Shown: piece by piece, positions 42,356-63,100 of the stretch
Layout: every line of letters starts with the position of its first letter
Position numbering within the stretch: the stretch's first letter is position 1
From: Onthophagus taurus
Lineage: Eukaryota > Arthropoda > Insecta > Coleoptera > Scarabaeidae
Assembly: GCF_036711975.1 (NCBI RefSeq)
Contig: NC_091972.1
Location: forward strand, 29,021,001-29,085,000
Direction: 5' to 3'
DNA: 64,000 bases
The notes under the pieces: model-generated
The model's database searches: none
The model's input: only the letters and a program-made list of their open reading frames with translations
What the model was told of the DNA's origin: nothing
Program-made: the position numbers and the translations under genes

Positions 42356-44110
42356 ACTATATTTATGAAAGTTAAAGAATATTTTCACATACAATCCGAA
42401 CAATTACGTACATACATACATATGTATACTTCAGACTACCAATTGACGGCCGCAATCCTGCGCAGTTGAAAAGTGCTGCCACCGTCCGACTGAACCGTGG
42501 ACTGGTCAGCGACGTTTTGTCAAGCGTTCCAACCACAGAATATTATGTTATTCTGATTTATGTTCCAACGGCCGTCAGACAAATTCACGTATAGTCGTCC
42601 ACACCAAGATCCGGAATTACGATACGGCTGTAAAAGACCCTTAACAATAGAAGGGGCAATAGTTTTATGATGGTGCACATAAACAAGTCATAAATAAAGA
42701 GGTATCTTTTGAGTTCACACAAATCGGGCACGGCATAAGCATAATTTAGAAGAATCAGATAGTGATTCTGACTAAGTTCGGCCTTTAGGCTTACGTTTTC
42801 GATGTTATTAGTATTATTATTATATAGATTACTGACCAATACAGTTAAGTGTAATGAACTGAAAGAAATTCATTGGTACGTCCCTGACTTTCTAAACTAT
42901 GCAGGGTTCTCGGTCTCGTCTTAGGTAGAAATGGTTAAGTACCCTTAACCGCAGAGAAGCGGGGGTCTACAATTTATGGGGGTTGTAATTCCGGATCTTT
43001 TCCAATTGTACAGCCTGTCTGTTAGTATCTGTTATGTTTACTATGAAAGCGTATATTTGGATTATTTTCTATTCTTTTACATGTTTCGGGTATTTTGTTT
43101 AACAAATTTTATTTCATATTATGCATGTTTTATGATAACTTTTATAGACAAATTAATCAATAAATATGTAAACACATGCATATCTTTATTTCATTTTTCT
43201 ACTATTACCGCTATTAGGTTTTTTTAGTTCATTACTGTTAAAAAAATTAGTAAATGAATTTCGTTTAAAATGGTAAACTGTGCTTGCAGCGCCAATTCTC
43301 GGCAAGGTTCCGTTCCAACGAACATGCGCAAAAGAAAGTCGTGAATAGGTCGTGTACGCGTACAGGAACGGGGCAAATTTGTACGGTTGTTCGGTTTTAA
43401 CGAACTTTTCTTAACTATTATAACTTATGAAAAAACACAATGTTGTTTGTTATATTCAAAACTCGAAGAAGCTATGAGTAGGGTGTTCGTTCGTTCTTAT
43501 ACGTAACACGTTAACAATATGACAGAATTAACAATTTGTTTTTGTTACAACGTATATTTTCTGGTGAAATACGCACAACGACTAGAATGTCATTATTTAC
43601 CATCTACCTGAAAATGTCGGGTTGGATCGTCCGTCGAAAAAAAAAACTTTAACATTCAGATCGACAGGAACAAGCAGGTAGATGGTAAATAAAGGCGCTT
43701 TAGTCATTGTACTTCGAAAACCCGAAAATATGCGTCATAGTATATATCAACAAGTTTCATTTTTACTTATTGGTGTTGTGTGCGTGGATGTGGAAAAAAC
43801 AATTAATGCGACCAGTGTTAATACATCTTGCGCGGGATGCGACTAAACTCGTTTTGCATGTTATTGATGCCCGCTACACGGTAAGACTTTGGCGGCAAAA
43901 TGCCCGCGCAAGATGTGTTAACCGTGTTGCTGTGAAAATACGTCGTTAGCGTGACGTCACATTGAAATTTTAAAAATCGAAAGATATTTTTCGGTAAGTT
44001 TATCACTTAAGAGTTATTTAGAATTAACAATACTGTTACATTCAAAAACTTGATACAATTACACCACCGCAGCAGACATCGATAGTTCATTATTCGACTA
44101 TATTTTTTGT
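42356..44110. other. H4-H2A spacer, unit 2
   Basis: Same content as 4454-6208, including the 15-bp inverted repeat (42606-42620 and 42985-42999) and the 20-bp-arm hairpin at 43817-43922. No gene is present. Confidence 0.5.
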
Positions 44111-44162: not shown

Positions 44163-44540
<378 letters not shown>

Positions 44541-44642
44541 TTACAATTAGTTGACTTGGTAGCGTGCCGAAAACTTCAACAAAATGTTTCAATGTAAACG
44601 ATATCGTTGTCGATAACGTTTCAATACTGAGCTGAGCGGAAT

Positions 44643-45367
44643 GGTGAACGGTGAACTTGACGGGCCTCTTGAGGTTCCTGGAATCTTCCTTAACCCTCTT
44701 CATCGGATCTAAAACAGACGGAAAATATATTAGTTAATATTCGCTAAATTAGCGATATCGGAAGTGGATTTGGAAAGGACAGTCGGGTTCCCGGATCGTC
44801 AGACGAGAAGCAGCCTTGGCCGTTTATGGCGAAGGTGTTCAACGTCGTAATCCGTTAATCCCGCTAGGAGGGGATTTGGGTGGTCTTCGAGCCGCGTAAA
44901 CTCGGTACTGGCTTTGTTCCGAATGAATTCCTCGATGGTCACCATCTGGGAATCATTGTGCAGTGTCGCATTACTGACAAACCAAGGAGCATCGAATACC
45001 ATCCTTAGGACCTTGTTCTGAACCACTTGGAGTTTTTGCACGTGCGAGTGCGCGGCGTAACCCCAGACTGAAGAAGCGTATGTCATCGCAGGTCTGATAA
45101 CCGCTTTGTAGAGTCGAATCTTCCGGAGAGGATCCAACTTACTTCGGCGATTTATCAGAGCGTACAGATTGACCAGAGCTACCTTCGCCCGGTTCGCCAT
45201 GGCCTCGATGTGACTTTTCCAAGTTAGTTTAGAGTCCAGAATGACACCCAAATACCTGGTTTCGGAATGCCAGGGAAGCTCGTTCCCTCGCAGTACCAAC
45301 GCATCGGGGGGTCTCTGTCTACGCCGAGTAAAGAGTACTGCGGTACTTTTATCAGCGTTGATTTTGA
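44643..45367 (-). mobile_element. Jockey-clade LINE, heavily 5'-truncated (copy B)
   Basis: On the minus strand this holds the last part of ORF2 (from KINADKS to RPRLLLV, stop at 44799), the 3' UTR and two GTTCACC repeats. It is flanked by TGAGCTGAGCGGAAT at 44628-44642 and 45365-45379; the first three bases overlap element sequence, giving a 12-15 bp target duplication. It lies in the transcription direction of H2A, just where H2A transcription should begin. It is near-identical to copies A and C (one change, RMVFDA for RMAFDA). Confidence 0.9.
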
Positions 45368-45537
45368 GCTGAGCGGAATGGTGAACTTGGTGAACTTGAC
45401 GGGCCTCTTGAGGTTCCTGGAATCTTCCTTAACCCTCTTCATCGGATCTAAAACAGACGGAAAATATATTAGTTAATATTCGCTAAATTAGCGATATCGG
45501 AAGTGGATTTGGAAAGGACAGTCGGGTTCCCGGATCG

Positions 45538-48225
45538 TCAGACGAGAAGCAGCCTTGGCCGTTTATGGCGAAGGTGTTCAACGTCGTAATCCGTTAATCC
45601 CGCTAGGAGGGGATTTGGGTGGTCTTCGAGCCGCGTAAACTCGGTACTGGCTTTGTTCCGAATGAATTCCTCGATGGTCACCATCTGGGAATCATTGTGC
45701 AGTGTCGCATTACTGACAAACCAAGGAGCATCGAATGCCATCCTTAGGACCTTGTTCTGAACCACTTGGAGTTTTTGCACGTGCGAGTGCGCGGCGTAAC
45801 CCCAGACTGAAGAAGCGTATGTCATCGCAGGTCTGATAACCGCTTTGTAGAGTCGAATCTTCCGGAGAGGATCCAACTTACTTCGGCGATTTATCAGAGC
45901 GTACAGATTGACCAGAGCTACCTTCGCCCGGTTCGCCATGGCCTCGATGTGACTTTTCCAAGTTAGTTTAGAGTCCAGAATGACACCCAAATACCTGGTT
46001 TCGGAATGCCAGGGAAGCTCGTTCCCTCGCAGTACCAACGCATCGGGGGGTCTCTGTCTACGCCGAGTAAAGAGTACTGCGGTACTTTTATCAGCGTTGA
46101 TTTTGACCCGCCACTTTGCGAAGTAGTCTTGCAGCTGATCCGATGCTGTCTGCAGTCTACGAGCGGCGATCTCGGGGGACCAAGATCTGCTGTAGATGCA
46201 TACATCGTCGGCGTACATCGCTAACTGAGTGCCCTCGCACCGGGGTAGGTCGCTAACAAAGATACAAAAGAGTATCGGTGAAAGCAACGACCCCTGAGGG
46301 ACGCCAGCTGTTAGGATTCGCTCTGTCGAACGCGTACCGTTCAATTTGATGCGCGCCTTCCTACCGCCAAGATAGGACGCGATCAATTGAACCAACGCCA
46401 GGGGCACGCCCGCTTCTAGCATTTTGAACAAAAGTCCTTCATGCCATACTTTGTCGAACGCCTTGGCAACATCGAAAAGCGCCGCACAAGTGCTTTGCTT
46501 TCGATTGAAGCCTTCGGTTATGTATTCGACAAGTCGCAGTACCTGGTGTACGGTCGAATGTTTGGGTCGGAAACCAAACTGTTCGTCCTGAATGAGCTTA
46601 AGATCTTGAACTGATCTTTGTAGCCTCGTCTGGACGATCCTCTCGCATACCTTGCCGAGACAAGAAAGCAAACTGATGGGCCTGTAGCTTTGCGGGAACG
46701 TTAGGTTCGCCCCGGGTTTCGGTAACACGACGACGTCCGCGCATTTCCACTTGGTAGGGAAATGCCGCAGCCGGAACGCCGCATTGATGATTCCCGTCAG
46801 CGAAACGACCGCTTTTAAAGGCATGGCCTTTAAAGCAGCGTTTCCTATCCCGTCCGGTCCCGATGCCTTCTTCGACTTACATCTCGCGATTGCCTCTTTC
46901 ACCTCGGTCGGAGAAGCGTGCTCGATATGCCGACGATCTTCTACGGCCAGCCGCCTACTCACTACGCGTTCGACTCGATCGATGAAATCTTCATCTTCGT
47001 CATCGTCGCATAGCGGGCTGCACTGGTTTTCGAAGTTATCGGCATGAGCCTCTGCTTTCTCTTCGAGAGTGAAAGCCATTCCGGTTTCACCGTGAATGGG
47101 CGGCATGCGCGTCGTGTTCCCCTTCAGCACCTTGACCATCTTCCAACAGGAGTGATCGTCTTCGGTGTTCAGGGCGTCGAGTTTGGCGTCGAAAGACGCG
47201 TATCGGAACTCCGCGAGCTCCCTTCTCACATCACCGCGCAGACGGTTATAGCGACGCTTGAGATCGGGATCCCAATTGCGCTGATAAGTCCGCCTGACGC
47301 GATCACGCTCCCGCATAAGTTCCCTGATGTGCGCCGGAAGCACCCATCGATGGTCCTTTACGGGAATCGTGTTGGTCGCGTATCGAAGAGAATCCTCGAT
47401 TGCGACCGTGAGTCGTTCAACAGCCTCATCCAGTTCCTGAGCGTTGTGGATCGGTCGTATTTGTCCCATATTGTGGTGCAAGTGGTCGCTAAAAGCCGGC
47501 CACGATACAGTGGAACGTTCAACCGGGACGCGAACGTCCGGGACGTCTCCTAGCTGCAGCAGCACAGGGAGATGATCGGAACTAAGTTCGTTGAGCGTGG
47601 TAACTCTATGAACTAGTCGGACATCTTTAATTACAACCACGTCCAAAACGTCAGATCGTTGCCCTTCGTTCGACGGGTAATACGTGTGGTCGGCGGGGGC
47701 ATCGGTGACAATGCCCGTCTCGTCGGTAAAACTCCGCAGTATTTTACCGTTCGCGTTTGCGATCCGACTGTTCCACGATGGGTGCTTAGCGTTTAGGTCG
47801 CCGGCGATAACCACGCCTTTGTCCGTATCCAAGACACCCGTTAGATCGTCTTCCAACAACCGCCGATTCGGCGGATTGTAGGCGGCGACCAAGCGGACGC
47901 ACCCCGATAGTGTTCGTACCACAATCGTAGTAGCTTCGAGATGTTGAAGAGGGGGAGTCAGATCTTCGTAATGATCCAAACTGGTCCTTACAAAGATGGC
48001 TGTCCCGCCGCCTCTTGCACCAACTCTATCGTTTCGATAGAAGCGATAATTGGGCAGCCGTGGCCTGTCGCCCGCTCGCAGATGGGTTTCGCAAATGAGT
48101 ATCGCGTCAAGGTCGTACGTTTCGGCGAACTCGCGAAGTTCATTCTGTTTACAGACAAGGCCGTTGGCGTTCCAATAAGCCAACTCAAGCGAATGCGGTA
48201 CTCTCGGTCTTCGATGAGTCATCAT
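45538..48225 (-). CDS. LINE ORF2 endonuclease-RT (copy C)
   Basis: This is an intact 895-residue frame with all the endonuclease and RT motifs of copy A. Differences seen are few (PHSLELAY for PQSLELAY, FAETYDL for FAERYDL, RLVAAYN for RLIAAYN, GNAALKA for GNTALKA). The start is set by the ATGA overlap with the ORF1 stop. It is potentially functional protein, but the parent copy is truncated in ORF1. Confidence 0.9.
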   Translation of the reverse strand: MMTHRRPRVPHSLELAYWNANGLVCKQNELREFAETYDLDAILICETHLRAGDRPRLPNYRFYRNDRVGARGGGTAIFVRTSLDHYEDLTPPLQHLEATTIVVRTLSGCVRLVAAYNPPNRRLLEDDLTGVLDTDKGVVIAGDLNAKHPSWNSRIANANGKILRSFTDETGIVTDAPADHTYYPSNEGQRSDVLDVVVIKDVRLVHRVTTLNELSSDHLPVLLQLGDVPDVRVPVERSTVSWPAFSDHLHHNMGQIRPIHNAQELDEAVERLTVAIEDSLRYATNTIPVKDHRWVLPAHIRELMRERDRVRRTYQRNWDPDLKRRYNRLRGDVRRELAEFRYASFDAKLDALNTEDDHSCWKMVKVLKGNTTRMPPIHGETGMAFTLEEKAEAHADNFENQCSPLCDDDEDEDFIDRVERVVSRRLAVEDRRHIEHASPTEVKEAIARCKSKKASGPDGIGNAALKAMPLKAVVSLTGIINAAFRLRHFPTKWKCADVVVLPKPGANLTFPQSYRPISLLSCLGKVCERIVQTRLQRSVQDLKLIQDEQFGFRPKHSTVHQVLRLVEYITEGFNRKQSTCAALFDVAKAFDKVWHEGLLFKMLEAGVPLALVQLIASYLGGRKARIKLNGTRSTERILTAGVPQGSLLSPILFCIFVSDLPRCEGTQLAMYADDVCIYSRSWSPEIAARRLQTASDQLQDYFAKWRVKINADKSTAVLFTRRRQRPPDALVLRGNELPWHSETRYLGVILDSKLTWKSHIEAMANRAKVALVNLYALINRRSKLDPLRKIRLYKAVIRPAMTYASSVWGYAAHSHVQKLQVVQNKVLRMAFDAPWFVSNATLHNDSQMVTIEEFIRNKASTEFTRLEDHPNPLLAGLTDYDVEHLRHKRPRLLLV

Positions 48226-49356
48226 AAGAGTTTCATCATCTCGGACATGATTTGGACGCACAACTTAACTCGCGCGTCCCTATCGGATTTGTCGATTTGG
48301 ATGACCTCGCTCATCATCGCCAGTATGTTGACGAGGGGGTCGGTTGGGGGTTCAACCGCCGCCTGTGCCGCAACATTGACCGGGAATGGTGTTTCAGCCA
48401 CCGCGATCGACCCGCTTTTACGAAGCCTCCTATTGTGACGCCTCCTCTGCGACCTCGACAGCTTCGGGGGGTCGTCGGTCGCCTTTTGCTTCGGCTCGTT
48501 GAGCTTAGCTTTAGGCGCCGCGACCTCTTTCCGAACTACCTTGGTAGCTGGAGCGTTTGCTTTGGGGGCAACGTTAGCGTTGCCTTTCGGCTTTTTCGCC
48601 TGACTACTAACCGTTTTCACGGGTTTCGCCGCGACTACTGGAGCCTTTTTGTCCCCCTTTTGCGCCTGAATAGGTGCTTTCGGGGGAACGGTCGCTTTGA
48701 CCTTTGGGGCTGCCGCCGGCGCCCTCGTTTCCGCCGCCTTCGGGTGTTTTGGGCACCCTTTGTAGTTGGCGGTATGAGGGCCACCGCAAAGGACGCACTT
48801 GGCGGGCGCATCCTTTGCTTTGGCACAGGAAGCCGTCGGATGGTCACCAGCGCACTTCACGCAACGAGGTGCACCGTTGCACATTCGTTGGGAGTGGCCG
48901 TAACGCTGACAGCGATGACACTGGCCGACTTCCGTCTTCTTCTTGGCGCTCTCGACAGTTATGGTTAAAGCCATGACCGTCTTGAGGTCAAAGATCCGTT
49001 TGGTGTCCGCGGTCTTTTTCAAGACGCACAGGACTAACGGGACCGGCCTCCTTTCAGAGCCCTGGCGCATACGTTTTACCGTATCGGGCCAGAATCCCTG
49101 TTTTCTCAGGTCGGCAGCAATGCTGTCCTCCCCGATAATGGTAGGGACGCCTCGAAAAACCACCTTTAACGGCTTTTCCTCCGGTAGAGAGAATGTGTGG
49201 TACTGGTGTTTACCAGCCATCAACATCTTCACCAGGGCGCGATAGGCTTCCGCGGTGGGGAGCTCAATCTTGATTCCTTGCGGAACCGCTCTGGCTTTCG
49301 AAAAGGCGATCCGAAGTCTCGCCATCTCCGCCGAAATGGAATCCCAGTTTTCCTTC
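48222..49356 (-). pseudogene. LINE ORF1 C-terminal two-thirds (copy C)
   Basis: It carries KVVFRGVPTIIGEDSIAADL (the domain that precedes the knuckles in Jockey-type gag), then CHRCQRYGHSQRMC, CVKCAGDHPTASC and CVLCGGPHTANYKGC, three CCHC zinc knuckles, then a Lys/Ala/Pro-rich tail. The frame stays open to 50252, but beyond 49356 it reads the antisense of the plus-strand ORF1 repeats, which is accidental. Confidence 0.85.
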
Positions 49357-51414
49357 AAGTTTCCATTCAAGACTGCCTCCCCTGTGGCGGCGGCAGCCAA
49401 ATCATCAGGCCGCACCGCCTCCCTCGTGAAGGCGGCGACCAAGAAACCAGTCATTGGCAGAACTGCCTCCCCAGCGGAGGCGGCAGCCAAGGCTGGTATA
49501 CCAGGCCGTACTGCTTCCTTAGAGGATGCGACGACCAGCGCGGCAGGCCGCACCGCCTCCCTCGAGCAGGTGGCGACCAAAAGCACACGTAAGGTTAGTA
49601 CCGCCATCCCCGAGAAGGCGACAACCGAAACAACCCCCGTCCTTGGCAACACTGCCTCCCCAGTGGAGGCGAAAGCCATAGCACCATCAGGCCGTACTGC
49701 TTCCCTCGAGGATGCGACGACCAGCGCGGCAGGCCGCACCGCCTCCCTCGTGAAGGCGGCGACCAAGAAACCAGTCATTGGCAGAACTGCCTCCCCAGCG
49801 GAGGCGGCAGCCAAGGCTGGTATACCAGGCCGTACTGCTTCCTTAGAGGATGCGACGACCAGCGCGGCAGGCCGCACCGCCTCCCTCGAGCAGGTGGCGA
49901 CCAAAAGCACACGTAAGGTTAGTACCGCCATCCCCGAGAAGGCGACAACCGAAACAACCCCCGTCCTTGGCAGCACTGCCTCCCCAGTGGAGGCGAAAGC
50001 CATAGCACCATCAGGCCGTACTGCTTCCCTCGAGGATGCGACGACCAGCGCGGCAGGCCGCACCGCCTCCCTCGAGGAGGCGGCGACCACCTCCACTCCG
50101 AGGTCATTCGCCGAGGCGTTGGCTTCCATCCCGGCGGGTAAAATGGATGTCGACGTGGCAGTCGGTCCATCCAACGGGAAAAGGAAGGCCAGTAGCGACC
50201 TGGAGGACGAGTACTCGGAGGCCGTGCGTCCTCGATTGGAACACGTTTCCAAGCGGGTCTCCCCGGTAATCCTTCATGCGAAGGAAAACTGGGATTCCAT
50301 TTCGGCGGAGATGGCGAGACTTCGGATCGCCTTTTCGAAAGCCAGAGCGGTTCCGCAAGGAATCAAGATTGAGCTCCCCACCGCGGAAGCCTATCGCGCC
50401 CTGGTGAAGATGTTGATGGCTGGTAAACACCAGTACCACACATTCTCTCTACCGGAGGAAAAGCCGTTAAAGGTGGTTTTTCGAGGCGTCCCTACCAGTA
50501 TCGGGGAGGACAGCATTGCTGCCGACCTGAGAAAACAGGGATTCTGGCCCGATACGGTAAAACGTATGCGCCAGGGCTCTGAAAGGAGGCCGATCCCGTT
50601 AGTCCTGTGCGTCTTGAAAAAGACCGCGGACACCAAACGGATCTTTGACCTCAAGACGGTCATGGCTTTAACCATAACTGTCGAGAGCGCCAAGAAGAAG
50701 ACGGAAGTCGGCCAGTGTCATCGCTGTCAGCGTTACGGCCACTCCCAACGAATGTGCAACGGTGCACCTCGTTGCGTGAAGTGCGCTGGTGACCATCCGA
50801 CGGCTTCCTGTGCCAAAGCAAAGGATGCGCCCGCCAAGTGCGTCCTTTGCGGTGGCCCTCATACCGCCAACTACAAAGGGTGCCCAAAACACCCGAAGGC
50901 GGCGGAAACGAGGGCGCCGGCGGCAGCCCCAAAGGTCAAAGCGACCGTTCCCCCGAAAGCACCTATTCAGGCGCAAAAGGGGGACAAAAAGGCTCCAGTA
51001 GTCGCGGCGAAACCCGTGAAAACGGTTAGTAGTCAGGCGAAAAAGCCGAAAGGCAACGCTAACGTTGCCCCCAAAGCAAACGCTCCAGCTACCAAGGTAG
51101 TTCGGAAAGAGGTCGCGGCGCCTAAAGCTAAGCTCAACGAGCCGAAGCAAAAGGCGACCGACGACCCCCCGAAGCTGTCGAGGTCGCAGAGGAGGCGTCA
51201 CAATAGGAGGCTTCGTAAAAGCGGGTCGATCGCGGTGGCTGAAACACCATTCCCGGTCAATGTTGCGGCACAGGCGGCGGTTGAACCCCCAACCGACCCC
51301 CTCGTCAACATACTGGCGATGATGAGCGAGGTCATCCAAATCGACAAATCCGATAGGGACGCACGAGTTAAGTTGTGCGTCCAAATCATGTCCGAGATGA
51401 TGAAACTCTTATGA
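49357..51414 (+). CDS. LINE ORF1 gag-like protein, 5'-incomplete (copy D1)
   Basis: About 685 codons of ORF1 sequence; the open frame reaches back to 49255, but 49255-49356 is antisense of copy C. N-terminal half: tandem GRTASLE-type repeats rich in Ala/Thr/Ser, then FAEALASIPAGKMDVDVAVG and KRKASSDLEDEYSE. Second half: KENWDSISAEMARLRIAF, an RRM-like or PRE_C2HC-like region with KVVFRGVPT, three CCHC knuckles at about residues 425-490 of this piece, a basic Pro/Lys/Ala linker (KAPIQAQKGDKKAPVVAAK), RRRHNRRLRK and a C-terminal helix. It presumably binds LINE RNA. The true N-terminus is not in the window. Confidence 0.85.
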   Translation, partial: KFPFKTASPVAAAAKSSGRTASLVKAATKKPVIGRTASPAEAAAKAGIPGRTASLEDATTSAAGRTASLEQVATKSTRKVSTAIPEKATTETTPVLGNTASPVEAKAIAPSGRTASLEDATTSAAGRTASLVKAATKKPVIGRTASPAEAAAKAGIPGRTASLEDATTSAAGRTASLEQVATKSTRKVSTAIPEKATTETTPVLGSTASPVEAKAIAPSGRTASLEDATTSAAGRTASLEEAATTSTPRSFAEALASIPAGKMDVDVAVGPSNGKRKASSDLEDEYSEAVRPRLEHVSKRVSPVILHAKENWDSISAEMARLRIAFSKARAVPQGIKIELPTAEAYRALVKMLMAGKHQYHTFSLPEEKPLKVVFRGVPTSIGEDSIAADLRKQGFWPDTVKRMRQGSERRPIPLVLCVLKKTADTKRIFDLKTVMALTITVESAKKKTEVGQCHRCQRYGHSQRMCNGAPRCVKCAGDHPTASCAKAKDAPAKCVLCGGPHTANYKGCPKHPKAAETRAPAAAPKVKATVPPKAPIQAQKGDKKAPVVAAKPVKTVSSQAKKPKGNANVAPKANAPATKVVRKEVAAPKAKLNEPKQKATDDPPKLSRSQRRRHNRRLRKSGSIAVAETPFPVNVAAQAAVEPPTDPLVNILAMMSEVIQIDKSDRDARVKLCVQIMSEMMKLL
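49417..50085 (+). repeat. GRTAS-type repeats with a 324-bp tandem duplication inside ORF1
   Basis: The block starting GCCTCCCTCGTGAAGGCG occurs at 49417 and 49741, exactly 324 bp (108 codons) apart, so the frame is kept. Each block contains several degenerate 15-18-codon units built on GRTASLEDATTSAA. The other ORF1 copies to the right carry the block once. The antisense strand is also open throughout, with no bearing on function. Confidence 0.85.
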
Positions 51415-53987
51415 TGACTCATCGAAGACCGAGAGTACCGCAATCGCTTGAGTTGGCTTATTGGAACGCCAACGGCCTTGTCTGTAAACAGAATGAACTT
51501 CGCGAGTTCGCCGAAAGGTACGACCTTGACGCGATACTCATTTGCGAAACCCATCTGCGAGCGGGCGACAGGCCACGGCTGCCCAATTATCGCTTCTATC
51601 GAAACGATAGAGTTGGAGCAAGAGGCGGCGGGACAGCCATCTTTGTAAGGACCAGTTTGGATCATTACGAAGATCTGACTCCCCCTCTTCAACATCTCGA
51701 AGCTACTACGATTGTGGTACGAACACTATCGGGGTGCGTCCGCTTGGTCGCCGCCTACAATCCGCCGAATCGGCGGTTGTTGGAAGACGATCTAACGGGT
51801 GTCTTGGATACGGACAAAGGCGTGGTTATCGCCGGCGACCTAAACGCTAAGCACCCATCGTGGAACAGTCGGATCGCAAACGCGAACGGTAAAATACTGC
51901 GGAGTTTTACCGACGAGACGGGCATTGTCACCGATGCCCCCGCCGACCACACGTATTACCCGTCGAACGAAGGGCAACGATCTGACGTTTTGGACGTGGT
52001 TGTAATTAAAGATGTCCGACTAGTTCATAGAGTTACCACGCTCAACGAACTTAGTTCCGATCATCTCCCTGTGCTGCTGCAGCTAGGAGACGTCCCGGAC
52101 GTTCGCGTCCCGGTTGAACGTTCCACTGTATCGTGGCCGGCTTTTAGCGACCACTTGCACCACAATATGGGACAAATACGACCGATCCACAACGCTCAGG
52201 AACTGGATGAGGCTGTTGAACGACTCACGGTCGCAATCGAGGATTCTCTTCGATACGCGACCAACACGATTCCCGTAAAGTGGGCGGCGGCAGCCAAATC
52301 ATCAGGCCGCACCGCCTCCCTCGTGAAGGCGGCGACCAAGAAACCAGTTATTGGCAGAACTGCCTCCCCAGCGGAGGCGGCAGCCAAGGCAGGTATATCA
52401 GGCCGTACTGCTTCCTTAGAGGATGCGACGACCAGCGCGGCAGGCCGCACCGCCTCCCTCGAGCAGGTGGCGACCAAAAGCACACGTAAGGTTAGTACCG
52501 CCATCCCCGAGAAGGCGACAACCGAAACAACCCCCGTCCTTGGCAGCACTGCCTCCCCAGTGGAGGCGAAAGCCATAGCACCATCAGGCCGTACTGCTTC
52601 CCTCGAGGATGCGACGACCAGCGCGGCAGGCCGCACCGCCTCCCTCGAGGAGGCGGCGACCACCTCCACTCCGAGGTCATTCGCCGAGGCGTTGGCTTCC
52701 ATCCCGGCGGGTAAAATGGATGTCGACGTGGCAGTCGGTCCATCCAACGGGAAAAGGAAGGCCAGTAGCGACCTGGAGGACGAGTACTCGGAGGCCGTGC
52801 GTCCTCGATTGGAACACGTTTCCAAGCGGGTCTCCCCGGTAATCCTTCATGCGAAGGAAAACTGGGATTCCATTTCGGCGGAGATGGCGAGACTTCGGAT
52901 CGCCTTTTCGAAAGCCAGAGCGGTTCCGCAAGGAATCAAGATTGAGCTCCCCACCGCGGAAGCCTATCGCGCCCTGGTGAAGATGTTGATGGCTGGTAAA
53001 CACCAGTACCACACATTCTCTCTACCGGAGGAAAAGCCGTTAAAGGTGGTTTTTCGAGGCGTCCCTACCAGTATCGGGGAGGACAGCATTGCTGCCGACC
53101 TGAGAAAACAGGGATTCTGGCCCGATACGGTAAAACGTATGCGCCAGGGCTCTGAAAGGAGGCCGATCCCGTTAGTCCTGTGCGTCTTGAAAAAGACCGC
53201 GGACACCAAACGGATCTTTGACCTCAAGACGGTCATGGCTTTAACCATAACTGTCGAGAGCGCCAAGAAGAAGACGGAAGTCGGCCAGTGTCATCGCTGT
53301 CAGCGTTACGGCCACTCCCAACGAATGTGCAACGGTGCACCTCGTTGCGTGAAGTGCGCTGGTGACCATCCGACGGCTTCCTGTGCCAAAGCAAAGGATG
53401 CGCCCGCCAAGTGCGTCCTTTGCGGTGGCCCTCATACCGCCAACTACAAAGGGTGCCCAAAACACCCGAAGGCGGCGGAAACGAGGGCGCCGGCGGCAGC
53501 CCCAAAGGTCAAAGCGACCGTTCCCCCGAAAGCACCTATTCAGGCGCAAAAGGGGGACAAAAAGGCTCCAGTAGTCGCGGCGAAACCCGTGAAAACGGTT
53601 AGTAGTCAGGCGAAAAAGCCGAAAGGCAACGCTAACGTTGCCCCCAAAGCAAACGCTCCAGCTACCAAGGTAGTTCGGAAAGAGGTCGCGGCGCCTAAAG
53701 CTAAGCTCAACGAGCCGAAGCAAAAGGCGACCGACGACCCCCCGAAGCTGTCGAGGTCGCAGAGGAGGCGTCACAATAGGAGGCTTCGTAAAAGCGGGTC
53801 GATCGCGGTGGCTGAAACACCATTCCCGGTCAATGTTGCGGCACAGGCGGCGGTTGAACCCCCAACCGACCCCCTCGTCAACATACTGGCGATGATGAGC
53901 GAGGTCATCCAAATCGACAAATCCGATAGGGACGCACGAGTTAAGTTGTGCGTCCAAATCATGTCCGAGATGATGAAACTCTTATGA
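51411..53987 (+). CDS. Chimeric frame: LINE endonuclease fused to ORF1 gag (array junction 1)
   Basis: 858 codons from MMTHRRPR. Residues 1-289 are the complete APE-type endonuclease up to NTIPVK. At 52280 the frame continues as WAAAAKSSGRTASLVK and the ORF1 repeat region, the gag domain and three CCHC knuckles to EMMKLL. The ORF2 and ORF1 frames differ in the normal element, so the 2,573-bp repeat joins them in phase. There is no RT. Whether the fused protein is made is unknown. Confidence 0.85.
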   Translation: MMTHRRPRVPQSLELAYWNANGLVCKQNELREFAERYDLDAILICETHLRAGDRPRLPNYRFYRNDRVGARGGGTAIFVRTSLDHYEDLTPPLQHLEATTIVVRTLSGCVRLVAAYNPPNRRLLEDDLTGVLDTDKGVVIAGDLNAKHPSWNSRIANANGKILRSFTDETGIVTDAPADHTYYPSNEGQRSDVLDVVVIKDVRLVHRVTTLNELSSDHLPVLLQLGDVPDVRVPVERSTVSWPAFSDHLHHNMGQIRPIHNAQELDEAVERLTVAIEDSLRYATNTIPVKWAAAAKSSGRTASLVKAATKKPVIGRTASPAEAAAKAGISGRTASLEDATTSAAGRTASLEQVATKSTRKVSTAIPEKATTETTPVLGSTASPVEAKAIAPSGRTASLEDATTSAAGRTASLEEAATTSTPRSFAEALASIPAGKMDVDVAVGPSNGKRKASSDLEDEYSEAVRPRLEHVSKRVSPVILHAKENWDSISAEMARLRIAFSKARAVPQGIKIELPTAEAYRALVKMLMAGKHQYHTFSLPEEKPLKVVFRGVPTSIGEDSIAADLRKQGFWPDTVKRMRQGSERRPIPLVLCVLKKTADTKRIFDLKTVMALTITVESAKKKTEVGQCHRCQRYGHSQRMCNGAPRCVKCAGDHPTASCAKAKDAPAKCVLCGGPHTANYKGCPKHPKAAETRAPAAAPKVKATVPPKAPIQAQKGDKKAPVVAAKPVKTVSSQAKKPKGNANVAPKANAPATKVVRKEVAAPKAKLNEPKQKATDDPPKLSRSQRRRHNRRLRKSGSIAVAETPFPVNVAAQAAVEPPTDPLVNILAMMSEVIQIDKSDRDARVKLCVQIMSEMMKLL

Positions 53988-54852
53988 TGACTCATCGAAG
54001 ACCGAGAGTACCGCAATCGCTTGAGTTGGCTTATTGGAACGCCAACGGCCTTGTCTGTAAACAGAATGAACTTCGCGAGTTCGCCGAAAGGTACGACCTT
54101 GACGCGATACTCATTTGCGAAACCCATCTGCGAGCGGGCGACAGGCCACGGCTGCCCAATTATCGCTTCTATCGAAACGATAGAGTTGGAGCAAGAGGCG
54201 GCGGGACAGCCATCTTTGTAAGGACCAGTTTGGATCATTACGAAGATCTGACTCCCCCTCTTCAACATCTCGAAGCTACTACGATTGTGGTACGAACACT
54301 ATCGGGGTGCGTCCGCTTGGTCGCCGCCTACAATCCGCCGAATCGGCGGTTGTTGGAAGACGATCTAACGGGTGTCTTGGATACGGACAAAGGCGTGGTT
54401 ATCGCCGGCGACCTAAACGCTAAGCACCCATCGTGGAACAGTCGGATCGCAAACGCGAACGGTAAAATACTGCGGAGTTTTACCGACGAGACGGGCATTG
54501 TCACCGATGCCCCCGCCGACCACACGTATTACCCGTCGAACGAAGGGCAACGATCTGACGTTTTGGACGTGGTTGTAATTAAAGATGTCCGACTAGTTCA
54601 TAGAGTTACCACGCTCAACGAACTTAGTTCCGATCATCTCCCTGTGCTGCTGCAGCTAGGAGACGTCCCGGACGTTCGCGTCCCGGTTGAACGTTCCACT
54701 GTATCGTGGCCGGCTTTTAGCGACCACTTGCACCACAATATGGGACAAATACGACCGATCCACAACGCTCAGGAACTGGATGAGGCTGTTGAACGACTCA
54801 CGGTCGCAATCGAGGATTCTCTTCGATACGCGACCAACACGATTCCCGTAAA
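52280..54852 (+). mobile_element. Jockey-clade LINE array, second segment (copy D2)
   Basis: A 2,573-bp tandem unit: ORF1 from the repeat region, then ORF2 to NTIPVK. It is near-identical to the corresponding part of D1, without the 324-bp duplication. The left junction reads CCCGTAAAG then TGGGCGGCGGCAGCC. Confidence 0.9.
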
Positions 54853-56560
54853 GTGGGCGGCGGCAGCCAAATCATCAGGCCGCACCGCCTCCCTCGTGAA
54901 GGCGGCGACCAAGAAACCAGTTATTGGCAGAACTGCCTCCCCAGCGGAGGCGGCAGCCAAGGCAGGTATATCAGGCCGTACTGCTTCCTTAGAGGATGCG
55001 ACGACCAGCGCGGCAGGCCGCACCGCCTCCCCTGAGCAGGTGGCGACCAAATGCACACGGAAGGTTAGTACCGCCATCCCCGAGAAGGCGACAACCGAAA
55101 CAACCCCCGTCCTTGGCAGCACTGCCTCCCCAGTGGAGGCGAAAGCCATAGCACCATCAGGCCGTACTGCTTCCCTCGCGGATGCGACGACCAGCGCGGC
55201 AGGGCGCACCGCCTCCCTCGAGGAGGCGGCGACCACCTCCACTCCGAGGTCATTCGCCGAGGCGTTGGCTTCCATCCCGGCGGGTAAAATGGATGTCGAC
55301 GTGGCAGTCGGTCCATCCAACGGGAAAAGAAAGGCCAGTAGCGACCTGGAGGACGAGTACTCGGAGGCCGTGCGTCCTCGATTGGAACACGTTTCCAAGC
55401 GGGTCCCCCCGGTAATCCTTCATGCGAAGGAAAACTGGGATTCCATTTCGGCGGAGATGGCGAGACTTCGGATCGCCTTTTCGAAAGCCAGAGCGGTTCC
55501 GCAAGGAATCAAGATTGAGCTCCCCACCGCGGAAGCCTATCGCGCCCTGGTGAAGATGTTGATGGCTGGTAAACACCAGTACCACACATTCTCTCTACCG
55601 GAGGAAAAGCCGTTAAAGGTGGTTTTTCGAGGCGTCCCTACCAGTATCGGGGAGGACAGCATTGCTGCCGACCTGAGAAAACAGGGATTCTGGCCCGATA
55701 CGGTAAAACGTATGCGCCAGGGCTCTGAAAGGAGGCCGATCCCGTTAGTCCTGTGCGTCTTGAAAAAGACCGCGGACGCCAAACGGATCTTTGACCTCAA
55801 GACGGTCATGGCTTTAACCATAACTGTCGAGAGCGCCAAGAAGAAGACGGAAGTCGGCCAGTGTCATCGCTGTCAGCGTTACGGCCACTCCCAACGAATG
55901 TGCAACGGTGCACCTCGTTGCGTGAAGTGCGCTGGTGACCATCCGACGGCTTCCTGTGCCAAAGCAAAGGATGCGCCCGCCAAGTGCGTCCTTTGCGGTG
56001 GTCCTCATACCGCCAACTACAAAGGGTGCCCAAAACACCCGAAGGCGGCGGAAACGAGGGCACCGGCGGCAGCCCCAAAGGTCAAAGCGACCGTTCCCCC
56101 GAAAGCACCTATTCAGGCGCAAAAGGGGGACAAAAAGGTTCCAGTAGTCGCGGCGAAACCCGTGAAAGCGGTTAGTAGCCAGGCGAAAAAGCCGAAAGGC
56201 AACGCTAACGTTGCCCCCAAAGCGAACGCTCCAGCTACCAAGGTAGTTCGGAAAGAGGTCGCGGCGCCCAAAGCTAAGCTCAACGAGCCGAAGCAAAAGG
56301 CGACCGACGACCCCCCGAAGCTGTCGAGGTTGCAGAGGAGGCGTCGCAATAGGAGGCTTCGTAAAAGCGGGTCGATCGCGGTGGCTGAAACACCATTCCC
56401 GGTCAATGTTGCGGCACAGGCGGCGGTTGAACCCCCAACCGACCCCCTCGTCAACATACTGGCGATGATGAGCGAGGTCATCCAAATCGACAAATCCGAT
56501 AGGGACGCACGAGTTAAGTTGTGTGTCCAAATCATGTCCGAGATGATGAAACTCTTATGA
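53984..56560 (+). CDS. Chimeric frame: LINE endonuclease fused to ORF1 gag (array junction 2)
   Basis: A second 858-codon endonuclease-gag fusion with the same join after NTIPVK. The ORF1 part differs from junction 1 at several residues (SPEQVATKCTRK for SLEQVATKSTRK, SLADATTSAA for SLEDATTSAA, RVPPVILH for RVSPVILH, RLQRRRRNRR for RSQRRRHNRR), so it belongs to the ORF1 of the last, complete copy. The same junction with different flanks argues against a simple read duplication. Confidence 0.85.
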   Translation: MMTHRRPRVPQSLELAYWNANGLVCKQNELREFAERYDLDAILICETHLRAGDRPRLPNYRFYRNDRVGARGGGTAIFVRTSLDHYEDLTPPLQHLEATTIVVRTLSGCVRLVAAYNPPNRRLLEDDLTGVLDTDKGVVIAGDLNAKHPSWNSRIANANGKILRSFTDETGIVTDAPADHTYYPSNEGQRSDVLDVVVIKDVRLVHRVTTLNELSSDHLPVLLQLGDVPDVRVPVERSTVSWPAFSDHLHHNMGQIRPIHNAQELDEAVERLTVAIEDSLRYATNTIPVKWAAAAKSSGRTASLVKAATKKPVIGRTASPAEAAAKAGISGRTASLEDATTSAAGRTASPEQVATKCTRKVSTAIPEKATTETTPVLGSTASPVEAKAIAPSGRTASLADATTSAAGRTASLEEAATTSTPRSFAEALASIPAGKMDVDVAVGPSNGKRKASSDLEDEYSEAVRPRLEHVSKRVPPVILHAKENWDSISAEMARLRIAFSKARAVPQGIKIELPTAEAYRALVKMLMAGKHQYHTFSLPEEKPLKVVFRGVPTSIGEDSIAADLRKQGFWPDTVKRMRQGSERRPIPLVLCVLKKTADAKRIFDLKTVMALTITVESAKKKTEVGQCHRCQRYGHSQRMCNGAPRCVKCAGDHPTASCAKAKDAPAKCVLCGGPHTANYKGCPKHPKAAETRAPAAAPKVKATVPPKAPIQAQKGDKKVPVVAAKPVKAVSSQAKKPKGNANVAPKANAPATKVVRKEVAAPKAKLNEPKQKATDDPPKLSRLQRRRRNRRLRKSGSIAVAETPFPVNVAAQAAVEPPTDPLVNILAMMSEVIQIDKSDRDARVKLCVQIMSEMMKLL

Positions 56561-59403
56561 TGACTCATCGAAGACCGAGAGTACCGCAATCGCTTGAGTT
56601 GGCTTATTGGAACGCCAACGGCCTTGTCTGTAAACAGAATGAACTTCGCGAGTTCGCCGAAAGGTACGACCTTGACGCGATACTCATTTGCGAAACCCAT
56701 CTGCGAGCGGGCGACAGGCCACGGCTGCCCAATTATCGCTTCTATCGAAACGATAGAGTTGGAGCAAGAGGCGGCGGGACAGCCATCTTTATAAGAACCA
56801 GTTTGGATCATTACGAAGATCTGACTCCCCCTCTTCAACATCTCGAAGCTACTACGATTGTGGTACGAACACTATCGGGGTGCGTCCGCTTGGTCGCCGC
56901 CTACAATCCGCCGAATCGGCGGTTGTTGGAAGACGATCTAACGGGTGTCTTGGATACGGACAAAGGCGTGGTTATCGCCGGCGACCTAAACGCTAAGCAC
57001 CCATCGTGGAACAGTCGGATCGCAAACGCGAACGGTAAAATACTGCGGAGTTTTACCGACGAGACGGGCATTGTCACCGATGCCCCCGCCGACCACACGT
57101 ATTACCCGTCGAACGAAGGGCAACGATCTGACGTTTTGGACGTGGTTGTAATTAAAGATGTCCGACTAGTTCATAGAGTTACCACGCTCAACGAACTTAG
57201 TTCCGATCATCTCCCTGTGCTGCTGCAGCTAGGAGACGTCCCGGACGTTCGCGTCCCGGTTGAACGTTCCACTGTATCGTGGCCGGCTTTTAGCGACCAC
57301 TTGCACCACAATATGGGACAAATACGACCGATCCACAACGCTCAGGAACTGGATGAGGCTGTTGAACGACTCACGGTCGCAATCGAGGATTCTCTTCGAT
57401 ACGCGACCAACACGATTCCCGTAAAGGACCATCGATGGGTGCTTCCGGCGCACATCAGGGAACTTATGCGGGAGCGTGATCGCGTCAGGCGGACTTATCA
57501 GCGCAATTGGGATCCCGATCTCAAGCGTCGCTATAACCGTCTGCGCGGTGATGTGAGAAGGGAGCTCGCGGAGTTCCGATACGCGTCTTTCGACGCCAAA
57601 CTCGACGCCCTGAACACCGAAGACGATCACTCCTGTTGGAAGATGGTCAAGGTGCTGAAGGGGAACACGACGCGCATGCCGCCCATTCACGGTGAAACCG
57701 GAATGGCTTTCACTCTCGAAGAGAAAGCAAAGGCTCATGCCGATAACTTCGAAAACCAGTGCAGCCCGCTATGCGACGATGACGAAGATGAAGATTTCAT
57801 CGATCGAGTCGAACGCGTAGTGAGTAGGTGGCTGGCCGTAGAAGATCGTCGGCATATCGAGCACGCTTCTCCGACCGAGGTGAAAGAGGCAATCGCGAGA
57901 TGTAAGTCGAAGAAGGCATCGGGACCGGACGGGATAGGAAACGCTGCTTTAAAGGCCATGCCTTTAAAAGCGGTCGTTTCGCTGACGGGAATCATCAATG
58001 CGGCGTTCCGGCTGCGGCATTTCCCTACCAAGTGGAAATGCGCGGACGTCGTCGTGTTGCCGAAACCCGGGGCGAACCTAACGTTCCCGCAAAGCTACAG
58101 GCCCATCAGTTTGCTTTCTTGTCTCGGCAAGGTATGCGAGAGGATCGTCCAGACGAGGCTACAAAGATCAGTTCAAGATCTTAAGCTCATTCAGGACGAA
58201 CAGTTTGGTTTCCGACCCAAACATTCGACCGTACACCAGGTACTGCGACTTGTCGAATACATAACCGAAGGCTTTAATCGAAAGCAAAGCACTTGTGCGG
58301 CGCTTTTCGATGTTGCCAAGGCATTCGACAAAGTATGGCATGAAGGACTTTTGTTCAAAATGCTAGAAGCGGGCGTGCCCCTGGCGTTGGTTCAATTGAT
58401 TGCGTCCTATCTTGGCGGTAGGAAGGCGCGCATCAAATTGAACGGTACGCGTTCGACAGAGCGAATCCTAACTGCTGGCGTCCCTCAGGGGTCGTTGCTT
58501 TCACCGATACTCTTTTGTATCTTTGTTAGCGACCTACCCCGGTGCGAGGGCACTCAGTTAGCGATGTACGCCGACGATGTATGCATCTACAGCAGATCTT
58601 GGTCCCCCGAGATCGCCGCTCGTAGACTGCAGACAGCATCGGATCAGCTGCAAGACTACTTCGCAAAGTGGCGGGTCAAAATCAACGCTGATAAAAGTAC
58701 CGCAGTACTCTTTACTCGGCGTAGACAGAGACCCCCCGATGCGTTGGTACTGCGAGGGAACGAGCTTCCCTGGCATTCCGAAACCAGGTATTTGGGTGTC
58801 ATTCTGGACTCTAAACTAACTTGGAAAAGTCACATCGAGGCCATGGCGAACCGGGCGAAGGTAGCTCTGGTCAATCTGTACGCTCTGATAAATCGCCGAA
58901 GTAAGTTGGATCCTCTCCGGAAGATTCGACTCTACAAAGCGGTTATCAGACCTGCGATGACATACGCTTCTTCAGTCTGGGGTTACGCCGCGCACTCGCA
59001 CGTGCAAAAACTCCAAGTGGTTCAGAACAAGGTCCTAAGGATGGCATTCGATGCTCCTTGGTTTGTCAGTAATGCGACACTGCACAATGATTCCCAGATG
59101 GTGACCATCGAGGAATTCATTCGGAACAAAGCCAGTACCGAGTTTACGCGGCTCGAAGACCACCCAAATCCCCTCCTAGCGGGATTAACGGATTACGACG
59201 TTGAACACCTTCGCCATAAACGGCCAAGGCTGCTTCTCGTCTGACGATCCGGGAACCCGACTGTCCTTTCCAAATCCACTTCCGATATCGCTAATTTAGC
59301 GAATATTAACTAATATATTTTCCGTCTGTTTTAGATCCGATGAAGAGGGTTAAGGAAGATTCCAGGAACCTCAAGAGGCCCGTCAAGTTCACCGTTCACC
59401 GTT
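54853..59403 (+). mobile_element. Jockey-clade LINE array, terminal segment with 3' end (copy D3)
   Basis: ORF1 from the repeat region, complete ORF2, the 3' UTR and two GTTCACC repeats. It ends at the same host position as copy A in unit 1: CATTTTTATAACACTGC follows at 59404. So the right edge of the array derives from the same H2B-promoter insertion as copy A, though unit 1 holds only the last 285 bp of its ORF1. Confidence 0.9.
56557..59244 (+). CDS. LINE ORF2 endonuclease-RT (copy D3)
   Basis: An intact 895-residue frame, preceded by the ORF1 stop overlap (ATGA). All endonuclease and RT catalytic motifs are present (ICETHL, GDLNAKHPSWNS, SSDHLPVLL, FDVAKAFDKVWH, MYADD). Rare differences include EEKAKAHADN for EEKAEAHADN and VSRWLAVED for VSRRLAVED; the second changes a conserved Arg between endonuclease and RT and its effect is unknown. 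The longest near-complete LINE here is D3 (ORF1 part plus ORF2). Confidence 0.92.
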   Translation: MMTHRRPRVPQSLELAYWNANGLVCKQNELREFAERYDLDAILICETHLRAGDRPRLPNYRFYRNDRVGARGGGTAIFIRTSLDHYEDLTPPLQHLEATTIVVRTLSGCVRLVAAYNPPNRRLLEDDLTGVLDTDKGVVIAGDLNAKHPSWNSRIANANGKILRSFTDETGIVTDAPADHTYYPSNEGQRSDVLDVVVIKDVRLVHRVTTLNELSSDHLPVLLQLGDVPDVRVPVERSTVSWPAFSDHLHHNMGQIRPIHNAQELDEAVERLTVAIEDSLRYATNTIPVKDHRWVLPAHIRELMRERDRVRRTYQRNWDPDLKRRYNRLRGDVRRELAEFRYASFDAKLDALNTEDDHSCWKMVKVLKGNTTRMPPIHGETGMAFTLEEKAKAHADNFENQCSPLCDDDEDEDFIDRVERVVSRWLAVEDRRHIEHASPTEVKEAIARCKSKKASGPDGIGNAALKAMPLKAVVSLTGIINAAFRLRHFPTKWKCADVVVLPKPGANLTFPQSYRPISLLSCLGKVCERIVQTRLQRSVQDLKLIQDEQFGFRPKHSTVHQVLRLVEYITEGFNRKQSTCAALFDVAKAFDKVWHEGLLFKMLEAGVPLALVQLIASYLGGRKARIKLNGTRSTERILTAGVPQGSLLSPILFCIFVSDLPRCEGTQLAMYADDVCIYSRSWSPEIAARRLQTASDQLQDYFAKWRVKINADKSTAVLFTRRRQRPPDALVLRGNELPWHSETRYLGVILDSKLTWKSHIEAMANRAKVALVNLYALINRRSKLDPLRKIRLYKAVIRPAMTYASSVWGYAAHSHVQKLQVVQNKVLRMAFDAPWFVSNATLHNDSQMVTIEEFIRNKASTEFTRLEDHPNPLLAGLTDYDVEHLRHKRPRLLLV

Positions 59404-59505
59404 CATTTTTATAACACTGCATATGTACGTCGTCATTACTGTCGAAGTTGCTGTCGAAAATCTTGTCACCGATAAGTTTTACTAACTAATAAACGAACAA
59501 CAACA

Positions 59506-59877
59506 ATGCCACCGAAAACTAGTGGGAAAGCAGCCAAAAAGGCGGGTAAAGCGCAGAAAAATATATCGAAAACCGATAAGAAGAAGAAACGCAAGAGAAA
59601 GGAAAGCTACGCTATTTACATTTACAAGGTATTGAAACAAGTTCATCCCGATACCGGTATTTCGAGCAAAGCTATGAGTATAATGAACAGTTTTGTGAAC
59701 GATATCTTCGAGAGGATAGCCGCTGAAGCATCCCGTTTGGCTCATTACAACAAAAGATCAACGATCACCAGTCGAGAAATCCAGACTGCCGTCAGACTTC
59801 TGTTACCTGGAGAATTGGCAAAGCACGCTGTAAGCGAAGGCACCAAGGCTGTTACTAAGTACACAAGTTCCAAATAA
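59506..59877 (+). CDS. Histone H2B, unit 2
   Basis: Identical to 10117-10488 and intact. The 5' leader back to CATTTTTATAACACTGC (59404) is kept, but everything upstream is LINE. The CCAAT box and the first TATA-like box are absent from this unit, leaving only the TTTTTATAA word beside the LINE tail as a possible core promoter. Expression therefore depends on that word or on LINE-derived activity. Confidence 0.96.
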
Positions 59878-60173: not shown

Positions 60174-63100
60174 TGTTACCGGAGATGGGAGGGACAGGAA
60201 ACACGTGATGGAGTCAAACTCTCAACAACACTTAACAGGGTTTTTTATTTAAAATATTTTTTCACAAGATTAGTAGTAACGATATTTGTAATATAATATC
60301 CTCTGAGTCGAACGGCCTTCCTGTTTATCCCAGCTTGATGAATTCCAACCAATGGGGTGCGTCCGACCATTCGGCGCGGTCTTCCCAGTGTTCGAAGGGA
60401 CGGTAACCATCCCCTCAACAACCCCCGACAACCCTCAAGAGCCCATCAGTTTGCTTTCTTGTCTCGGCAAGGTATGTGAGAGGGTCGTCCAGACGAGGCT
60501 ACAAAGATCCGTTCAAGATCTTAACCTCATTCAGGACGAACAGTTTGGTTTCCGACCCAAACATTCGACCGTACACCAAGTACTGCGACTTGTCGAACAC
60601 ATAACCGATGGCTTCAATCGAAATCAAAGCACTTGTGCTGTGTTTTTCGACGTTGCCAAAGCGTTCGACAGATTATGGCATGAAGGACTTTTGTTCAAAA
60701 TGCTAGAAGCGGGCGTGCCCCTGGCGTTAGTTCAATTGATCGCGTCCTACCTTGACGATAGGAAGGCGCGCATCAAATTGAAAGGTACGCGTTCGAGAGA
60801 GCAAATCCTAACTGCAGGCGTCCCTCAGGGATCGTTGCTTTCACCGATACCCTTTTGTATCTTTGTGAGCGACCTACCCCGTTCTGAGGGCACTCAGTTA
60901 GCGATGTACGCCGACGATGTGCTAGACTACTTCGCAAAGTGGCGGGTCAAAATCAACGCTGATAAAAGTACCGCAGTACTTTTTACTTGGCGTAGAAAGA
61001 GACCCCCCGATGCGATGGTACTGCAAGGGGACGAGCTCCCCTGGCGTTCTGAAGCCAAGTATTTGGGTGTCATTCTGAACTCTAAACTAACTTGGAAAAG
61101 TCACATCGAGTCGATGGCGAACCGGGCGAAAGCAGCTCTGGTCAATAAATCGCCGAAGTAAGTTAGATCCTCTACGGAAGATTCGACTCTACAAAGCGGT
61201 TATCAGACCTACGATGACTTACGCCTCTTCCGTCTGGGGTTACGCCGCGCACTCGCACGTGCAAACACTCCAAGTTGTTCAGAACAAGGTCCTAAGGATG
61301 GCATTTGATGCACCTTGGTTTGTCAGTAATGCGACACTGCACAATGATTCCCAGATGGTGACCATCGAGGAGTTCATTCGTGACAAGGCCAGTACCGAGT
61401 TTACACGGCTCGAAAACCACCCCAATCCCCTCCTAGCGGGATTAACGGATTACCACGTTGAACACCTTCGCCACAAACGGCCAAGGCTGCTTCTCGTCTG
61501 GCGATCCAGGAGTCCGACTGTCCTTCCCAATTCCACTTCCGATGTCAATATTAATTAGTGAAAATTTTGTAATATATTTTCCGTTTGTTTTAGGTCCGAT
61601 GAAGAGGGTTAGGGAAGAAATTCCAGGTACCTCAAGAGGCCCGTCATGTTCACCGTTCACCCTCAAGAGGCCGCGCCGGGTTGTCGGGCTCGTTGTCGGC
61701 GTGGGAGGTGCCGAACGAAGATCGTTCACGTGGACCTTGGTGGCTTCCGCGGTGTTGAACCGTCTAACCCAATAAGTGTTGGTTTCGGCGGTACTGATAA
61801 TGATGTGAGGTCCGTTCCAACGTGAATTGAATTCGTGGAGGAACCTCTCCTGCGTTCCGTTGCCGGTATCTATGCTCGTTCATATGGGCGCGTCGTATTC
61901 GTTCTTGTCTTCTATCTTCTCCGTTAGGGGCTTGGTTGGGTGCGGGATCTTCGGCGAACCATTCTCTAGGTTTACGGAGTCGGAGTGCATTTTCCAGGTT
62001 TACGGAGCTCGTAACCCAATAGCATAAGAGCCGGTGTTTGTTTCGTTGCGGCATCCCTTCGAGAACGGATGTTGAATAGAGCGGTTTGCAGGTGTTTGTC
62101 CCAATTATTACGTATATGACGTAGGCATTTTTTTAAGTCCTGTTTTCGTCGTTCTGTCGGGTTGGCTTGGGGGTGGTATATCGGCGTAGTCCATTGAAGA
62201 CATCCCCACCGTCGGAGTGCAGCATCCCATTCGATGGATATGAATTGTAAGCCGTTGTCGGAAAGGATAGCCCTGGGGTATCCGAATCGTGGGAATACTT
62301 CTATGTCCATTACACGGATGACGTCTGCGGTGTCCGTCCTTTGGATGGGGAACGCCTCCACCCAGCGACTGAACAAGTCTGTGATAACCAGTATGTGGCG
62401 GTTACCAGTAGTGGTAGCATTATATGGTCCCATTAGATCCACCGCAATCACATCCCAGGGTATTGTGGGCTCATGTGGCCGAAGAGGCACACGCCCAACA
62501 GGTGCGTACGTGTTACGAACATCGTCGTCCACGTTTAGCCAGTGACGTGCTATGGCTCGTGCAGTTTCTTCCGCTCCTGGGTGAATCGCGGTACGCGAAT
62601 AACACGTGCTCCTGCATGTCTGTGGGTACGACGAGTCTGTTGCCGTCATCATTTCTTCGCCAAAGCAGGCCGTCAGCAACCACGTATTCCCTTAGGATTT
62701 TTTCTTCGGTCGCGTTCGTAGAGCCGTTAGTATGTATATTATTCCACGCATGGATGAGGTCTTTTGCGTGATGATTCTTTTTCTGGTTTTCTTTAATCAT
62801 GTTGGCCAGGTCCGCCACAGCTATGGCGGCGACGAAAGGTTGTTCTTCTTACGTAGCTGGTACGGTTTTGTTTCCAGGTGGTAACATTCTGTTTATGCCT
62901 CGCCGTTGTCAGTCAGTGTTTGTTGTGCCGGTTCTCTTGACAAGAAATCTGGTAATTCGTTCTTCTCGCCCGATACTTGTTCTATTCCGAAGTTGAATTC
63001 TTGCAATAATAGGGACCATCGTGTGAGTTTGGCATTTTGGTTAGAAAAAGTTTTCAGCCATAGCAAACTACGGCTTTCGGTTCGTAGTGTGAAAGATATC

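Follow-up and report, generated by a model that had tools for sequence, protein, structure and literature searches.

Why do copies of one transposable element stand between histone genes and their TATA boxes, pointing the same way as the genes that they separate from their promoters? The question is raised by a 64,000-nucleotide stretch of Onthophagus taurus DNA (contig C7, 29.02–29.085 Mb, within a 290.8-Mb genome; hereafter the window), which holds two near-identical histone units, each with H3, H4, H2A and a divergent H2B (99.4–99.7% identity between units). In unit 1, the 5'-truncated LINE copy A stands between the H2B gene (10117–10485, plus strand) and the H2B TATA box (TATAAA, 6852–6857, plus). 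In unit 2, copies B and C (minus) precede the H2A gene (44166–44537, minus), and an array, D1–D3 (plus), precedes the H2B gene (59506–59874, plus). The answer favored here, with a probability of roughly 0.7, is that a recently active Jockey-like LINE is aimed at RNA polymerase II (Pol II) TATA core promoters, inserts in the sense orientation and thereby inherits a promoter. TATA boxes and transcription starts are throughout those predicted from the sequence.

Judged by its coding regions and termini, the element is a non-LTR retrotransposon (LINE). ORF2 encodes an APE-type endonuclease (Exo_endo_phos, 1.1e-19) and a reverse transcriptase (RVT_1, 2.8e-41) that matches L1 ORF2p with an E value of about 1e-21, no RNase H was detected in ORF2 at E ≤ 0.001, and ORF1 contains a PRE_C2HC domain (3.1e-12). 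The element is without LTRs, its 5' truncation points vary, its target-site duplications (TSDs) are mostly 8–14 bp with two long ones (about 53 and 73 bp), and its 3' terminus consists of TTCACCG in variable number. The Jockey-clade label given in the original prediction fits this set of domains (PRE_C2HC in ORF1; APE and RT with no RNase H hit in ORF2), as a placement made by domains alone. Within 49386–55235, ORF1 also carries degenerate GRTASLxxAATK-type repeats, whose number varies between copies.

At the H2A promoter, the 12-mer GCTGAGCGGAAT was found at three places in the window (6729–6740, 44631–44642 and 45368–45379), and allowing one mismatch still gave three matches, a number reached in 0 of 100 shuffles. 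The place in unit 1 (6729–6740, minus) is the empty H2A target site, and the H2A TATA box of that unit (TATATATA, 6755–6762, minus) begins 22 bp before it. In unit 2, the 12-mer flanks the 5'-truncated copy B (44643–45367, minus; 99.6–99.7% identical to other LINE copies in the window) on both sides and is therefore a TSD, of which the gene-proximal copy (44631–44642, minus; ATTCCGCTCAGC in the H2A direction) adjoins the LINE 3' end at 44643 in an exact junction (TATATATATTTGAAAAACCTGT/ATTCCGCTCAGC, 12-bp duplication) and the second copy (45368–45379, minus) separates B from C. The 5'-truncated copy C (45380 to approximately 49350, minus; 908-codon ORF2 at 45538–48264) abuts this TATA-proximal copy of the duplication with its 3' end. 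The expectation that B and C adjoin GCTGAGCGGAAT downstream of the H2A TATA box, in sense to H2A, was borne out, with a distance of 22 bp as measured in unit 1. The H2A site was indeed hit twice, with the correction that B and C share one site, C standing at the TATA-proximal end of the TSD of B. The interval originally given for both (44600–45400) takes in B but only the 3' end of C. Either of the two may have landed first.

At the H2B promoter of unit 1, copy A (from about 6883 to 10014, plus; sense to H2B) lies between two copies of an 11-bp duplication, CATTTTTATAA (6872–6882 and 10015–10025, plus), with the exact junction TATAAACGGCAAAAACAGGC/CATTTTTATAA, and the duplication begins 20 bp after the start of TATAAA at 6852. 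In unit 2, the same CATTTTTATAA (59404–59414, plus) adjoins the 3' end of D3 in the array D1–D3 (from about 49370 to 59403, plus), which consists of 2573-bp internal units repeated head to tail; ORF2 of D3 (56518–59244, plus) is a 908-codon open frame with endonuclease and reverse transcriptase. The predicted position of copies A and D3 at the H2B promoter, in sense to H2B, is thus correct; both divergent core promoters have indeed been entered in sense, as have the H3 and H4 promoters described below. Upon comparison of the units, unit 2 lacks the stretch corresponding to 6741–6871 of unit 1, in which both TATA boxes lie, and its H2A and H2B genes seem to have lost their TATA boxes. Copies C and D lie head to head at 49350–49370, about 15 bp apart, an arrangement that could be the outcome of two insertions at divergent promoters joined via their 5' ends.

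The distribution of the LINE in the whole genome was surveyed with a 16-base tag near its 3' end, which had 90 places with at most one mismatch among the matches listed (100 of 159); the two-mismatch class, for which a reversed-tag control gave 78, was left out. Of the 90 tagged 3' ends, 14 were no more than 300 bp away from the start of an H2A or H2B gene, each of them upstream and in sense. The excess over chance rests on this genome-wide test, with a chance expectation of about 0.003 (63 gene places, each of 300 bp, over 581.7 Mb of strand, × 90), after exclusion of six of the 37 H2A rows as fragments or weak. Three tags were dropped as non-LINE (C1:33875784, C5:3942088 and C11:21094803), and the 3' flank was read for each of the 87 copies left. 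Directly upstream of core histone genes and in sense were 21 of these (7 at H2A, 8 at H2B, 3 at H3 and 3 at H4), comprising the proximity set, copy C (stacked on B and counted among the seven at H2A) and histone matches in the flanks. Antisense insertions were looked for on both sides of H2A and H2B and in the 3' flank for H3 and H4, and H1, used as a query against the LINE 3' flanks, gave no match. The junctions at H3 (TATAAAGCAGCCTTCAACCGAGC/GATCTCTCAGT) and H4 (TATATAAGGGCGCGAAAAGTCCC/GGAAACGG) have a geometry like those at H2A and H2B, so that junctions fall at TATA +20 to +23 in all four gene types. Two insertions at histone genes depart from this rule, C7:27484208 with its end upstream of the H2A TATA box and C7:28698369 with its end some 14 bp short of the usual site.

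Many copies differ from one another in tail, truncation point and leader, though duplicated units blur the count of independent events, and flanks recur through duplication at three sites (with 8, 5 and 2 copies). Stacked copies show repeated use of a single promoter in the case of B and C in the window, of L106 and L107 on C6, and of an H2A promoter on C7 (L116). The 5' end L115 lies in an H2A promoter, whereas the closest 3' end downstream of it, 4991 bp away, is in an H3 promoter (C7:27637335); this pair is probably the product of recombination between two LINE copies, removing the genes between.

Sense insertion at promoters thus stands, but the histone specificity supposed in the original prediction does not: in 66 of the 87 cases, no core histone gene lies directly downstream of the LINE 3' end. 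The full-length copy C7:26429947 is placed within an LTR-like unit (TGT...ACA) and is flanked there by CTATATAAGGCGGCCGGGTTTCC and ATCAGCGG, and 11 of the 66 non-histone copies have the same 3' flank, that is, one site in an LTR-like promoter. Specificity for histone genes was ruled out by these 11 copies together with other TATA sites. Of the refutation proposed in the original prediction, half applies: most copies lie outside histone promoters, but a promoter and orientation bias is present there too. Two 3'-end subfamilies were recognized, one with all H2A and H2B copies and two of the three H4 copies, the other with the three H3 copies, one H4 copy and the 11 copies at the LTR-like site. 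A common sequence at the cut site was also considered and ruled out, the sites at H2A, H2B, H3, H4 and elsewhere being different, and pure duplication of units was ruled out by differing 5' ends and tails.

The spacing between TATA box and insertion was assessed at sites with a recognizable TSD. A search for the LINE 5' end gave 38 places, of which 32 upstream flanks were read and 6 left out; pairing 5' and 3' ends by common sequence yielded 22 of the 32 with a duplication, and 21 were used (the flank of L118 equals that of L117). The 24 copies whose 5' junction was inspected contributed eight 5'-truncated insertions, the rest being 10 without recognizable duplication, 2 that repeat a used flank, 3 that are 3' parts of full-length copies already used, and copy B, which was left out because C, not a TATA box, precedes it. 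In the resulting 29 TSD-bearing insertions, a perfect TATAWA starts 19–24 bp before the duplication in 15, compared with 0.68% of random positions in sampled DNA, and with up to one mismatch in 23, compared with 8.9%. Among the 16 sites belonging to neither histone genes nor LTRs, TATAWA is perfect in 6 and has no more than one mismatch in 10 (binomial 7e-10 and 1.5e-7, P values that assume independent sites, though LTR and histone sites recur). Scanning of 27 of the 29 sites from −60 to +19 (upstream shorter for a few) placed TATAWA at −24 to −19 only. The spacing is kept by the 5'-truncated insertions (5 of 8 with a perfect TATAWA, and 5 with at most one mismatch), and retention of working promoters is therefore no explanation. 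An initiator-like TCA occurs within the first 14 bases in 18 of the 29, compared with a background of 17.8%, a few of these TCAs lying past the duplication, in the leader.

Six of the 29 sites have two or more mismatches to TATAWA at this distance, namely L122, L124, L125, C11:62608, C7:28696782 (inside another LINE copy) and the window copy at 11052. The older, diverged LINE copies in the window (11052–12272 and 60441–61661) are about 90% identical and are embedded in another repeat at a site lacking a TATA box; their flank is common to five 3' ends genome-wide. L120, a LINE 5' end in a histone spacer, has no TATA box at the right distance. It lies in the H4–H2A spacer at TTTATTTACC (C7:28948143; window positions about 43680–43760), where a TATATAC is too far upstream, and this spacer may hold another transcription unit. 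The window also includes, at 21407–23026, a 539-codon open frame that looks by eye like a pogo/Tc1-type transposase.

In full-length copies, the duplication is separated from the constant LINE start (AGTCCG...) by a leader of variable sequence. The copy at C8:20943229 (L130/L131) has a 10-bp duplication, and its flank GATGAATTTATGGTGTAAA is followed by a leader of 52 nt, then by 19 other bases and then by the LINE. The 52-nt leader matches the H3 5'UTR at 50 of 52 positions and begins with TCAGTTT, the predicted H3 start, and the upstream flank is not H3. The 3' end of this copy, a single case, lies 23.7 kb from the 5' end and was paired with it via a 12-mer common to both. The leader suggests that the RNA was made at an H3 promoter, and in the simplest reading a parent copy would have stood in an H3 gene, with a long duplication, and reverse transcription of its RNA, begun at the H3 promoter, would have run through to the end of that RNA. 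A long duplication extending into the 5'UTR exists at H4 (C7:28822472, about 73 bp). Alternatively, the reverse transcriptase may have jumped onto an H3 mRNA. L104 (LTR target) and L111 (H3 target) have a common 19-nt leader of which the genome holds no exact match elsewhere; a genome-wide search found no donor, with two-mismatch matches at three places and five for the reversed-pattern control. The leaders of L125 and L129, proposed to hold 8–10 nt of the H2A start sequence, are ambiguous, with matches of only 10–13 nt, one of those of L129 lying elsewhere.

As to how the sites are found, we lean towards a mechanism in which the LINE reads the Pol II pre-initiation complex, enters the stretch that opens at the start, always in sense, and takes over the TATA promoter, so that its RNA would carry the first bases of the captured gene and the leaders of later copies would record ancestral promoters. 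The template strand would be cut about 20–24 bp downstream of the TATA start, about 10 bp before the predicted transcription start, with reverse transcription primed there, and the second cut would usually follow 8–14 bp further on. Expressed relative to the start, this would put the template-strand nick near −10 and the second cut at roughly +1 to +4. The stretch from about −10 to +1/+4 corresponds approximately to that which opens at initiation. The new copy would be in sense to the gene, with its 5' end just past the TATA box and start region of the target, and in a full-length copy the captured promoter would drive transcription, giving an RNA whose first few bases come from the 5' leader of the target. 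The duplication would rebuild the TATA-to-start spacing, and the same promoter could therefore be hit again, giving stacks like B and C. The commonest targets are multi-copy histone genes and LTR promoters. Recognition of TBP or of the assembled initiation complex (open DNA) by the element is part of this proposal, and the fixed TATA distance is suggestive of such guidance by transcription factors; transcription would start at the captured promoter, as supported by the one H3-derived leader.

The main rival is direct binding of TATA by a protein of the element itself (through the ORF1 zinc knuckles, or ORF2), with the endonuclease nicking at a fixed distance with no host transcription factor. 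Direct binding would account for otherwise dissimilar sites having the TATA spacing in common, and the PRE_C2HC domain of ORF1 is in keeping with it. However, TATAWA in the genome is far commoner than promoters, the histone and LTR-like sites resemble real promoters with an initiator-like TCA, and variants such as TATTTAAG and TATATGTA are in use, and we consider this rival possible but unlikely. A preference for open, nucleosome-free promoter DNA, with no ruler, would draw on promoters being open and histone genes highly expressed, but it is hardly probable, as open DNA alone predicts neither a TATA spacing only 6 bp wide nor the sense orientation of all 14 cases within 300 bp of H2A or H2B. 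Just as improbable is the absence of any integration preference, under which the pattern would come from amplification of histone units and retention of expressed copies. Amplified units (99.4–99.7% identical) do carry LINE copies, and the three flanks recurring by duplication (8, 5 and 2 copies) speak for such a process, but copies at one gene type differ in tail, 5' truncation point, duplication length and leader, and the TATA spacing occurs also in 5'-truncated copies (5 of 8) and among the 16 unrelated non-histone sites.

Members of the Jockey clade (jockey, Doc, F, HeT-A/TART) have zinc knuckles in ORF1 and APE and RT without RNase H in ORF2. Jockey-type elements are driven by internal promoters and target loosely; HeT-A relies on a promoter in its neighbor, and HeT-A/TART go to telomeres. 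The LINE described here resembles them in the domain make-up of ORF1 and ORF2 and differs in its location at TATA promoters instead of loose targets or telomeres. Among retroelements that precisely target transcription starts, those directed at Pol III genes are the best described. TRE5-A of Dictyostelium is an APE-endonuclease LINE guided to promoters, whose ORF1 protein binds TBP, Brf1 and Bdp1 (TFIIIB) and which inserts 44–54 bp upstream of Pol III tRNA genes in the opposite orientation (PMC5911963), and Ty3, a Pol III-directed LTR element with an integrase, lands 1–4 bp from the transcription start through TFIIIB (PMC5911963). These two are the nearest systems in guidance by promoter factors, a guidance that would apply to the present LINE. 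Unlike TRE5-A, the LINE here uses Pol II TATA promoters, standing in sense some 20 bp past the TATA box, and Ty3, alike in inserting near the transcription start, is not a LINE.

The nearest systems in way of life are R1/R2, which likewise insert precisely into tolerant multi-copy genes. R1/R2 of 28S rDNA occupy a precise position in a multi-copy gene, need no promoter of their own, are co-transcribed with the target and are tolerated through the many gene copies. Their target is a single DNA sequence within the transcribed region of one gene family, whereas the LINE here uses varied sequences with a TATA box at a fixed distance, before the transcribed region; a single conserved target sequence at the cut, as in R1/R2, was not found. 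A literature search of open-license PMC papers, with partial coverage, turned up no LINE that has histone genes or Pol II TATA promoters as its target. None of R1/R2, TRE5-A and Ty3 is known to be aimed at Pol II TATA promoters in sense, and the present LINE would be a novel form of target-specific LINE. If this is true, it would show how an element lacking a promoter survives, by acquiring one at each jump, and it would provide a natural setting in which core-promoter insertion can be studied and guidance of target-primed reverse transcription by the initiation complex becomes testable. The histone genes would then be a tolerant multi-copy home for the element, parallel to that of the rDNA elements.
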